6,190 bases of DNA from a bacterium (lineage in GTDB: Bacteria; UBP15; UBA6099; DSWB01): the NCBI GenBank assembly GCA_020061125.1, contig JAGUYV010000197.1, positions 1 through 6,190 of the forward strand, written 5' to 3'. Made by a program: the position numbers and the translations under genes. The first letter of the stretch is position 1; every line of letters begins with the position of its first letter. Below are positions 381 through 2,871 of this stretch, piece after piece. The notes under the pieces were generated by a model that was not told the origin of the DNA, did no database searches, and worked only from the letters and a program-made list of their open reading frames with translations.

Positions 381-408
381 TTGCCGCAAACCCGCGATTT
401 GTTATAAT
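381..408 (+). promoter_or_regulatory. Sigma-70-type promoter of the methyltransferase operon, producing a leaderless mRNA
   Basis: A consensus TATAAT lies at 403-408, with a 4/6-match -35 element TTGCCG at 381-386 and a 16-base spacer. The expected start of transcription, about seven bases after the -10, falls at 414-417, on or next to the A of the ATG at 417. There is no Shine-Dalgarno sequence between the -10 and the start codon. Bases 405-407 are an in-frame TAA, so translation cannot begin further upstream in this frame. Confidence 0.6.
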
Positions 409-416
409 GTGTACAA

Positions 417-1544
417 ATGAGCAGTCTATCTTTTTGGAACAGCACCCGGGAACGCCTTGACGGCAAACCGCCTCTACTTGATTTTTTTGCTGGCAGCGGT
501 TTGGCGTCGGAAGGCCTGAAAGATTTTTTTCAAACTGTTTGGGCCAACGACATCTGCCCCAAGAAAGGCGCGGTGTTTTGCGCCAACCATCCGGAACACA
601 TATTTGAGCTTGGCTCAATAACAAATATTTCGGGAAAGAGCCTACCGAAAGCATGTGTGTCCTGGGGGAGCTTCCCATGTCAGGATTTATCGCTTGCGGG
701 CAATCTAAACGGAATTTCGAGCGATAGAAGCGGTCTGGTATGGGAATGGCTGCGCGTTATGGATGAAATGCCCGCAAGGCCTCCAATCTCCGTTGCAGAA
801 AATGTCGTTGGCTTGATATCGGCGGCGAATGGCAAGAATTTTGTGCCATTACATCAAGCATTGGTGAATCGTGGCTACAAAGCAGGCGCCGTTGTGATTG
901 ATGCGGCTAATTGGGTTCCGCAATCAAGAAAGCGCGTGTTTATTATCGCTGTCAAGGCGGGAACGAATACGGAGCACTTGGAATCAAATACGCCGTTATG
1001 GTGTCATCCGGATTCCATTAAAAGCATCGCCGAATCCTTGGACAAATGGGTCTGGTGGAATATTCCCAAGCCTAACGGAAAACGAAAGCGCCTTGACGAG
1101 GTAATTGATCCGGCCGCACCATGTTTTGATGCAGATAAGACGGACTCGGTTATTGATCTCATTCCTCAATCACATATAGTCAAATTGCGTGACGCCGCAG
1201 CAAAAGGTCAGAACATATTCCCTGGCTATAAGAGAATACGAAACGGGAAGCAGGTTCTGGAACTTAGATTCGATGGGCTTGCAGGCTGTTTAAGAACGCC
1301 GCAGGGCGGAAGCAGCCGCCAATTTCTGATAATCAAGGAAAACGGCTCCATCAAGACGCGCCTGTTAACAGTGAAGGAAGCCGCCGCATTAATGGGAGTG
1401 CACAAAAATTACAGAATTCCAGGAACATACAATGATGGATACAAGGCCATGGGTGATGCGGTGTGTGTTCCTGTCGTTCGATATCTGGCGAAACACCTTT
1501 TGTACCCCCTATCGCAGGCTGTAATGGAGACGGTTTCCATATGA
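417..1544 (+). CDS. DNA (cytosine-5-)-methyltransferase of a predicted type II R-M system
   Basis: This 375-residue protein transfers a methyl group from S-adenosylmethionine to C5 of cytosine in a specific DNA sequence. The C5-methyltransferase motifs appear in canonical order: motif I LLDFFAGSGLASEGL (residues 20-34, SAM binding); motif IV GSFPCQDLS (84-92), with the catalytic cysteine C88; motif VI ENV (128-130); motif VIII QSRKRVFI (169-176); motif IX LRTPQGGSSRQ (292-302); and motif X MGDAVCVPV (345-353), with GD where GN is usual. The target-recognition segment between VIII and IX spans about 115 residues, suggesting a single short recognition site; the site itself cannot be read from sequence. 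Motif I begins only about 20 residues in, so there is no N-terminal regulatory helix-turn-helix of the M.SsoII kind. The ATG at 417 is the only credible start: an in-frame stop lies 12 bases upstream, and it is probably leaderless. Its stop codon overlaps the next gene's start (ATGA). GC content is visibly lower than in the flanking genes. Confidence 0.95.
   Translation: MSSLSFWNSTRERLDGKPPLLDFFAGSGLASEGLKDFFQTVWANDICPKKGAVFCANHPEHIFELGSITNISGKSLPKACVSWGSFPCQDLSLAGNLNGISSDRSGLVWEWLRVMDEMPARPPISVAENVVGLISAANGKNFVPLHQALVNRGYKAGAVVIDAANWVPQSRKRVFIIAVKAGTNTEHLESNTPLWCHPDSIKSIAESLDKWVWWNIPKPNGKRKRLDEVIDPAAPCFDADKTDSVIDLIPQSHIVKLRDAAAKGQNIFPGYKRIRNGKQVLELRFDGLAGCLRTPQGGSSRQFLIIKENGSIKTRLLTVKEAAALMGVHKNYRIPGTYNDGYKAMGDAVCVPVVRYLAKHLLYPLSQAVMETVSI
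1526..1530 (+). promoter_or_regulatory. Ribosome binding site that fixes the DUF4928 gene start
   Basis: GGAGA ends 10 bases before the ATG at 1541, inside the last codons of the methyltransferase. Together with the ATGA overlap it supports 1541 as the start, not the in-frame ATG at 1463, which would add 26 residues inside the methyltransferase gene. Confidence 0.65.
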
Positions 1545-2464
1545 ACATTGATATTGCGCTGGCTGATTTTGCAAAGGAAAACAGCTTTTCCAACAAAGGT
1601 CCCCTTTGCGTCGCGCTTGTTGTAACCAGACACGCCGCGAAGAAAGGCTTGCCGCTCGATCCTGATTCGCTGTTGACGCACAGCGAAGGGCAGGTCATCG
1701 GGATGGGTAAGTCGAGCGTGCAGGCGATACTCAAAGAGCATGGAATTGATCGAGTATTGGCGGAGGAAGGAGGCAGAACGAGCCGCGGCAGCGTACGCAA
1801 CATGAAAAAATATGTGGCCTTTCTCAACGGTTTGCACAGCAAGCAGGAAATTGATCTTCTCCGGGTTGAACAATGGTGGATCCGCATGGTTTCAAAGCAT
1901 TTTGCTGGGAAACCTTTCTCACTGAAATTCGATGCTTCAAAGTCATTGCGATCCGTAATCCGGGATCTGATGTTTCAAGCGGAAAAGAGACAGTCGCAAT
2001 CTGGAGGATATACCATTGCGGGGACAATGTTGCAGCATCTTGTTGGGGCGAAATTGAATTTGCTGCTCAATAAACGAGTGGAACATCACGGAGCCTCGGT
2101 GGCGGACAAATCATCGAGACGCGACGGCGATTTTCTTATTGAAGATGTCGCCATTCACGTTACGACTGCACCTGGTGAAGCGCTAATCAGAAAATGCAGC
2201 GGCAATCTCAATTCAGGCCTAAAACCCATGATCATCACTTCTCAAAAGGGCGTGGCCATTGCACAGGGCCTTGCTGAAAACGCGGGCGTCGGAGACAGGA
2301 TAGACATATTTGACGCCGAACAATTTCTTGCTGGGAATCTATATGAACTTGGAAAATTCAAAAGCTCTGGACGCAAGACAACAGCTAAGCACTTGATTGA
2401 CGAATACAACAGCATTATTGAATCCTGTGAGACGGATCCAAGCCTTTGTATTGAGTTGTCATAA
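1541..2464 (+). CDS. DUF4928-family protein, predicted type II restriction endonuclease
   Basis: This 307-residue protein begins MNIDIALADFAKENSF. I recognise it as a DUF4928-type protein from conserved stretches: NKGPLCVALVVTRHA (18-32), EEGGRTSRGSVRNM (75-88), LQHLVGAKLNLLL (164-176), DGDFLIEDVAIHVTTAPGEA (195-214) and GLAENAG (243-249). The family is recalled, not searched. The gene lies between a cytosine-5 methyltransferase and vsr, which is where a cognate restriction endonuclease is expected. No signal peptide or membrane segment is visible, consistent with a cytoplasmic DNA-acting protein. The stretch around D197 to T208, followed by a strand LKPMIITSQKG (227-237), looks like the beta-hairpin core of a PD-(D/E)XK nuclease, but the usual E-x-K is replaced by H-V-T (206-208). 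Cleavage is therefore inferred, mainly from context. The 1-110 region is probably helical and could contact DNA. The start overlaps the methyltransferase stop (ATGA) and the stop overlaps the vsr start (TAATG), so translation should be coupled. Confidence 0.8.
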   Translation: MNIDIALADFAKENSFSNKGPLCVALVVTRHAAKKGLPLDPDSLLTHSEGQVIGMGKSSVQAILKEHGIDRVLAEEGGRTSRGSVRNMKKYVAFLNGLHSKQEIDLLRVEQWWIRMVSKHFAGKPFSLKFDASKSLRSVIRDLMFQAEKRQSQSGGYTIAGTMLQHLVGAKLNLLLNKRVEHHGASVADKSSRRDGDFLIEDVAIHVTTAPGEALIRKCSGNLNSGLKPMIITSQKGVAIAQGLAENAGVGDRIDIFDAEQFLAGNLYELGKFKSSGRKTTAKHLIDEYNSIIESCETDPSLCIELS

Positions 2465-2871
2465 TGACAGATGTATTTTCCCAAAAACAGCGCAGCATGA
2501 TAATGCGCCGGGTGAAAAGCAAGGACACGGCGCCGGAGGTGTTTGTCCGATCGTTGACGCATCGCCTGGGATACCGGTTCCGGTTGCATAGAAACGACTT
2601 GCCGGGAAATCCGGATTTAGTCTTCCCTTCAAGAAAAAAAGTGATTTTTGTTCACGGATGTTTCTGGCACGGACACAACTGCAATCGAGGGCGAAGAGTG
2701 CCCAAGACAAATCAAGCATATTGGACGGAGAAGATAACAAAAAACAAAGAACGAGATAAAAACGCTCGAAGTTCGCTGAAGAAAATGGGTTGGTCGAGCA
2801 TGATTATTTGGGAATGTGAATTAAAAGATACTGATAAGCTGATTCTCAAAATTGTGTCATTTGTTGAATAA
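2464..2871 (+). CDS. vsr: Very short patch repair endonuclease (Vsr)
   Basis: Vsr nicks the strand carrying T in T:G mismatches that arise when 5-methylcytosine deaminates, starting repair back to C:G. This 135-residue protein has the family's key residues at almost the same numbers as the E. coli enzyme: E25 in TAPEVFVR, the catalytic D51 in LPGNPDLVFP, and H64, W68 and H69 in VHGCFWHGH. The zinc ligands would be C66, H71, C73 and C118. The N-terminal RSMIMRRVKSKDT, which in E. coli helps position DNA, is also present. It is about 20 residues shorter than E. coli Vsr (156), with the loss at the C-terminus after the catalytic domain. The ATG overlaps the last base of the DUF4928 stop (TAATG). 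There is little Shine-Dalgarno sequence, so translation probably depends on coupling. Its presence implies that the upstream methyltransferase modifies a target where deamination gives a mismatch this enzyme recognises. Confidence 0.95.
   Translation: MTDVFSQKQRSMIMRRVKSKDTAPEVFVRSLTHRLGYRFRLHRNDLPGNPDLVFPSRKKVIFVHGCFWHGHNCNRGRRVPKTNQAYWTEKITKNKERDKNARSSLKKMGWSSMIIWECELKDTDKLILKIVSFVE

Follow-up and report, generated by a model that had tools for sequence, protein, structure and literature searches.

A DUF4928 protein as the predicted restriction endonuclease, EcoT38I-like in fold, of a compact operon with a cytosine-5 methyltransferase and Vsr

The window, the stretch of DNA analysed here, is a whole contig of 6190 bases from a 4.1-Mb draft genome in 513 contigs. 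It carries three co-directional genes (Table 1), flanked by genes for a GH3 glycosidase and hflX, that encode a C5-cytosine DNA methyltransferase (M), a DUF4928 protein (R) and a very short patch repair (Vsr) endonuclease (V). The methyltransferase and DUF4928 genes overlap by 4 bases (ATGA), and the DUF4928 and vsr genes by 1 base (TAATG). The same M-R-V order is found again in an unrelated MAG (locus L008; 60, 67 and 59% identity for M, R and V) and elsewhere, and the arrangement is therefore not due to chance. A putative promoter was assigned from its position ahead of the methyltransferase gene; promoter-like sites as such are not commoner in the stretch than expected by chance (2 found, 3.1 expected in shuffles). 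Because the -10 element of this site ends 8 bases ahead of the methyltransferase ATG, the transcript may be leaderless or almost so.

Table 1. Features of the M-R-V operon; positions count from the first base of the window.
Feature	Position	Strand	Details
C5-cytosine DNA methyltransferase (M)	417..1544	+	375 aa; ATG 417, TGA 1544; PF00145, TIGR00675
DUF4928 protein (R)	1541..2464	+	307 aa; ATG 1541, TAA 2464; predicted Type II restriction endonuclease, EcoT38I-like PD-(D/E)XK fold
Vsr endonuclease (V)	2464..2871	+	135 aa; ATG 2464, stop 2871
Methyltransferase catalytic Cys88, motif IV SFPCQ	678..680	+	read from sequence; aligned across lineages
DUF4928 putative active-site hairpin	2105..2158	+	Asp189, Gly196-Asp197-Phe198, His206 (DxxxxxxGDFxIxxxAIHVT); invariant in 15 sequences
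Sigma-70-like promoter (putative)	381..408	+	TTGCCG-16-TATAAT, TG before -10; 10/12 matches

The methyltransferase matches its profiles over the full length (PF00145, E 5.7e-42; TIGR00675 (dcm), 2.4e-43) and contains, in order, the motifs FAGSG (I), SFPCQ (IV), ENV (VI), QSRKR (VIII), RLLTVKEAA (IX) and GDAV (X). The whole-protein match and the order of the motifs place it among the C5-cytosine DNA methyltransferases, with M.HaeIII and M.HhaI as the nearest solved structures. Its best-scoring model was DruM2 of Druantia (PDLC00028), an assignment that we rejected because the partner Dru genes are absent: neither the large Druantia helicase nor any other Dru gene lies beside it within the contig, where its neighbours are the DUF4928, vsr, GH3 glycosidase and hflX genes. 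The Vsr protein scores above the cut-off with PF03852 (3.4e-32) and TIGR00632 (vsr; 3.6e-46). As seen from its alignment with E. coli Vsr (1cw0; 4.2e-30), it retains Asp51, His64, Cys66, Phe67, Trp68, His69, His71, Cys73 and the C-terminal Cys, that is, every catalytic residue and zinc ligand, and both profile and residues make it a member of the Vsr endonucleases. An earlier reading of this DNA from sequence only had described three genes overlapping by 4 and 1 bases, with intact methyltransferase and Vsr motifs; the coordinates and overlaps were confirmed, as were the motifs, by reading them and by aligning Vsr to 1cw0.

The DUF4928 protein matches PF16280 (DUF4928) at 2.5e-53 and 181.8 bits (gathering score 25 bits) over residues 21-305 of 307. 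The sequence-only reading held that the family carries nothing beyond a domain-of-unknown-function label. This is right for Pfam, and NCBIfam returned no match for the protein; PADLOC-DB 2.0 (2023), however, lists the family already under REase_II, with a model (PDLC03543) that the protein matches as a full-length member at 1.7e-42. The restriction-enzyme label for the family is thus not new. What is new is the predicted EcoT38I-like fold, the missing canonical (D/E)xK lysine, methyltransferase partners that appear to have been exchanged, and the Vsr-methyltransferase fusions in related loci. A literature search for DUF4928 returned no description of activity and one incidental mention, a Vsr / DUF4928 / C5-methyltransferase set given uncommented on SGI1-related islands of Marinobacter (PMC9035990).

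An AlphaFold2 model of the window DUF4928 protein (13 aligned sequences; pLDDT 82.8, pTM 0.62) had a sole Foldseek match below E 0.001, DNA-bound EcoT38I (7edb, E 4.2e-5). VIA-align also ranked EcoT38I first (Z 11.8, 275 residues aligned, model residues 1-307), with the second EcoT38I entry at Z 8.6; BspD6I, MspJI, AspBHI, NgoMIV, PspGI, BstEII and BsaWI followed with Z of 5-7 over the core only (about model residues 132-298). With a second AlphaFold2 model, made for a DUF4928 protein 32% identical to that of the window (L017; pLDDT 83.7), EcoT38I again came first in VIA-align (Z 11.6, and Z 9.0 with rmsd 7.7 Å), here by re-ranking only, as it was not among the Foldseek top 50. The two models were built from largely the same 13 sequences and are not fully independent, and the rmsd of the top match is high in both (6.4 Å for the window, 16.3 Å for L017), a match that is not tight and fits domain movement. 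Both models contain the common alpha-beta core of the PD-(D/E)XK superfamily, and together they make a good, though predicted, case for an EcoT38I-like PD-(D/E)XK fold over the full length of DUF4928. Searches with phmmer and two profiles (E up to 10) gave no sequence match between DUF4928 and EcoT38I or any solved restriction enzyme. Because no sequence homology is detectable, we call the protein EcoT38I-like in fold, and not a relative or isoschizomer of EcoT38I. The presence of MspJI and AspBHI among the structural matches (Z ~6.7) would suit a modification-dependent, MspJI-like nuclease that cuts foreign methylated, and not unmethylated, DNA. We consider such an activity extremely unlikely, given that these weaker matches share the catalytic core alone, whereas EcoT38I covers residues 1-307, and that every intact copy lies beside a C5 methyltransferase, so that, unless the two motifs differ, the nuclease would attack the DNA of its own host.

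An alignment of 15 diverse DUF4928 members shows no variation at Asp189, Asp197, His206 and, in a helix, Lys171 (numbered as in the window protein), and has an E-G-x-R-T-x-R-G type block at 76-83. The model places strands at 198-200 and 203-207, with Asp197 opening the first strand of the hairpin and His206 within the second. The strand expected to bear the canonical (D/E)xK reads A204-I-H206-V-T208, with an invariant His206 and no lysine, and Glu213 is not invariant. Either catalysis would therefore use residues other than the canonical set, or the enzyme is atypical; Asp197 and His206 are the probable catalytic pair, assisted by Lys171 or Asp189. The missing (D/E)xK could also mean that the methyltransferase and Vsr form a stand-alone epigenetic pair, of which solitary C5 methyltransferase and Vsr-like examples exist (Caulobacter ScmA/VsrA, PMC12907096), and that DUF4928 lacks nuclease activity and acts as an accessory protein that binds DNA or regulates. 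The full-length predicted fold, however, matches a solved restriction endonuclease, and the Asp197/His206 hairpin is invariant; moreover, DUF4928 decays where the methyltransferase is absent (see below), which a harmless regulator is not forced to do. We therefore regard an accessory role as very unlikely.

We gathered DUF4928 relatives from plasmids, genomes and viral contigs; the phage collection contained none. A C5 methyltransferase gene lies directly upstream on the same strand in all 25 DUF4928 loci with readable upstream DNA (evident fragments set aside), a count that includes near-identical plasmid copies and corresponds to an estimated ~19 independent cases at 90% identity. L008 was counted among the 25 despite a frameshift near its DUF4928 start, L019, which begins at a contig end, was left unjudged, and a genome match below the curated cut-off (G558; 71 residues, E 6.8e-4) was not counted. 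DUF4928 is thus not mostly found away from methyltransferases, a pattern named beforehand as one that would speak against the middle gene being the cognate restriction enzyme, and this assignment is supported by the linkage and by the predicted EcoT38I-like fold. Vsr is present in 13 of the 25 loci, fusions to the methyltransferase included; it mostly follows downstream, but L053 has it in convergent orientation, L056 ahead of the methyltransferase gene, and L049, L050 and L051 as a fusion to the methyltransferase N-terminus. The proposal of a complete restriction-modification unit with its own Vsr repair therefore stands for the constant M-R linkage, while Vsr is an optional companion and not a fixed part.

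DUF4928 copies without a methyltransferase are broken, the fate to be expected when a restriction gene is left without its methyltransferase. In L030 the gene survives as a frameshifted remnant, and in L023 as a fragment at a contig end. An M-R query was matched in part by 62 E. coli genomes. Coverage in the ten listed is 26-30% of the query and falls entirely in the DUF4928 part, leaving the methyltransferase part unmatched; in the two stretches inspected (L078 and L079), the annotation splits DUF4928 into two pieces and shows no methyltransferase. In these stretches (L078:1063-4543, L079:421-4564) the remnant lies beside NACHT and RelA/SpoT genes, near a relaxase gene, and the region is probably a hotspot for defence genes within a mobile element. 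The L023 fragment (L023:4998-5204) occupies the extreme end of its contig. The remaining genes there (terminase, portal and head genes) resemble those of Mu, and the fragment may represent host sequence attached to a phage terminus.

The frameshift in L008, the nearest relative found and itself from a MAG, indicates either that loss of R occurs or that an assembly error mimics it. By the same token, the window operon could be a restriction system by descent whose restriction enzyme is inactive in the source genome; with its three open frames, complete motifs and all family-invariant residues kept in DUF4928, we hold this to be very unlikely.

The operon has a GC content of 0.48 and a GC3 of 0.50, whereas the GC3 of its neighbours, the GH3 glycosidase and hflX genes, is 0.84-0.85. 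DUF4928 is present in one copy in the source genome and in none of six genomes of the same order. Those six genomes have hflX orthologues that share 69-73% identity with the hflX of the contig; the contig therefore belongs to the lineage, and an insertion is the simplest account of the operon. From its composition and distribution, the M-R-V block looks horizontally acquired. Related DUF4928 copies are carried by conjugative and mobilizable plasmids with carbapenemase genes, including units near IMP-63 and IMP-10 genes on Pseudomonas aeruginosa plasmids (L002:1-5872, L007:538-5085), and may affect which DNA such plasmids coexist with.

Comparison of the methyltransferases partnered with DUF4928 revealed divergent lineages. 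Lineage A (the window, L008, L014, L052, L053a, L054 and L056) has mutual identities of 53-64%, and lineage B, of a Pseudomonas/Burkholderia/Azospirillum plasmid type, is ~40% identical to it. DUF4928 proteins of the A and B groups are 43-58% identical, and diversity within A nearly equals that between the groups. In methyltransferase trees A and B are ~1.8 changes per column apart, both branches being supported (100/100 and 99/98); in the DUF4928 tree the B group branches off by 0.09 with weak support (81/78). The target-recognition regions of A and B methyltransferases share YKRxR...RFDxxAGCLRTPxGGSS[RK]Q, and lineage B methyltransferases are also paired with an unrelated restriction-enzyme family (PADLOC PDLC03501). 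The simplest reading of these sequences would be that methyltransferases of one specificity have been swapped around the same restriction enzyme, although unequal rates could also have produced the contrast between the trees. If partners were exchanged in this way, several divergent methyltransferases should have one target in common, a prediction that would help to assign motifs to many unannotated systems. One locus (L053:4045-8126) has a single DUF4928 gene with two methyltransferases, of lineage A and of a lineage C, and a convergent vsr, and is possibly an intermediate of methyltransferase exchange.

The lineage C methyltransferase of L053 is 71% identical to a Vsr-fused type. These fusions (L049:4491-6113; L050:4810-6447, minus strand; L051:3158-4786) come from three genomes of one class; each is one uninterrupted frame of 540-545 aa that contains the two Pfam domains and has DUF4928 directly behind it. 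Their Vsr part keeps Asp51 and Phe-Trp-His69 and has lost the zinc ligands (IFIDGDFWHGGQW instead of IFVHGCFWHGHNC). A limited literature search found no description of a Vsr-methyltransferase fusion.

Taken together, the window very probably contains a Type II restriction-modification operon that was acquired horizontally, with DUF4928 as the cognate restriction endonuclease and Vsr as a companion. Of the genes that define this type, a methyltransferase gene with complete catalytic motifs is present, and a linked, separate restriction endonuclease gene is present by prediction. As judged from its enzyme class, the methyltransferase would place 5-methylcytosine in one sequence motif of the host genome. 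The DUF4928 nuclease, which by analogy should work as a dimer, would cut the same motif when unmethylated on incoming DNA, as its predicted fold suggests. Vsr, a member of its family by profile and residues, would nick T:G mismatches that arise by deamination of 5-methylcytosine in or near the motif, and would thereby keep the system from losing its own sites by mutation. The overlapping genes and single promoter would couple expression, M probably being translated first. We also propose, tentatively and with somewhat less than even confidence, that DUF4928, with an EcoT38I-like fold and a non-canonical site (an invariant His at the place of the lysine), is the constant element of modular units. 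In these units methyltransferases of divergent lineages would act on one DNA target, shared elsewhere with an unrelated restriction enzyme, and Vsr would be separate, fused or absent. A domain of unknown function gains a concrete structural and mechanistic prediction, and the M-R-V operon is compact and clonable, with a target motif that could be found in one experiment.

Among known systems, EcoT38I of an E. coli P2 prophage (PDB 7edb, 7e8r) is like DUF4928 in overall predicted fold over the full length, whereas the two have no detectable sequence similarity. EcoT38I reportedly recognises GRGCYC, with a control gene and the genes of the system in head-to-head orientation; the window has co-directional, overlapping genes instead. 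The EcoT38I gene was absent from 13 E. coli P2 prophages of different junction classes. One P2 prophage cargo, in E. coli E10 (L058:3526-6295), encodes a ParB-N protein with similarity to PD-Lambda-5_A, a 318-aa protein and a convergent C5 methyltransferase; the 318-aa protein gave no family match and, when tested as a candidate for EcoT38I, proved not to be it. For the 5mC methylation of GRGCYC in Propionibacterium (PMC11649196), no tie to DUF4928 could be established.

Linkage of vsr to a C5 methyltransferase gene is known from other pairs (PMC6116569, PMC12907096). E. coli dcm-vsr and Neisseria V.NgoAXIII/V.NgoAXIV have this linkage and the Vsr residues in common with the window; E. coli dcm, however, is solitary, whereas the window has M and V separated by a restriction gene. 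The same layout is found in M-R(-V) units with PADLOC REase_II PDLC03501 (L032:1558-4003, L033:2986-4963, L034:1792-3806), on plasmids of Desulfosarcina, Paracoccus and Roseobacter. Their restriction enzyme is of a different family, with a plain D...ExK (HDY...IELKG), no DUF4928 match and no Pfam family. Their methyltransferases are ~38% identical to that of the window and ~60% to those of the Pseudomonas DUF4928 units, and the Desulfosarcina Vsr is 61% identical to the window Vsr.
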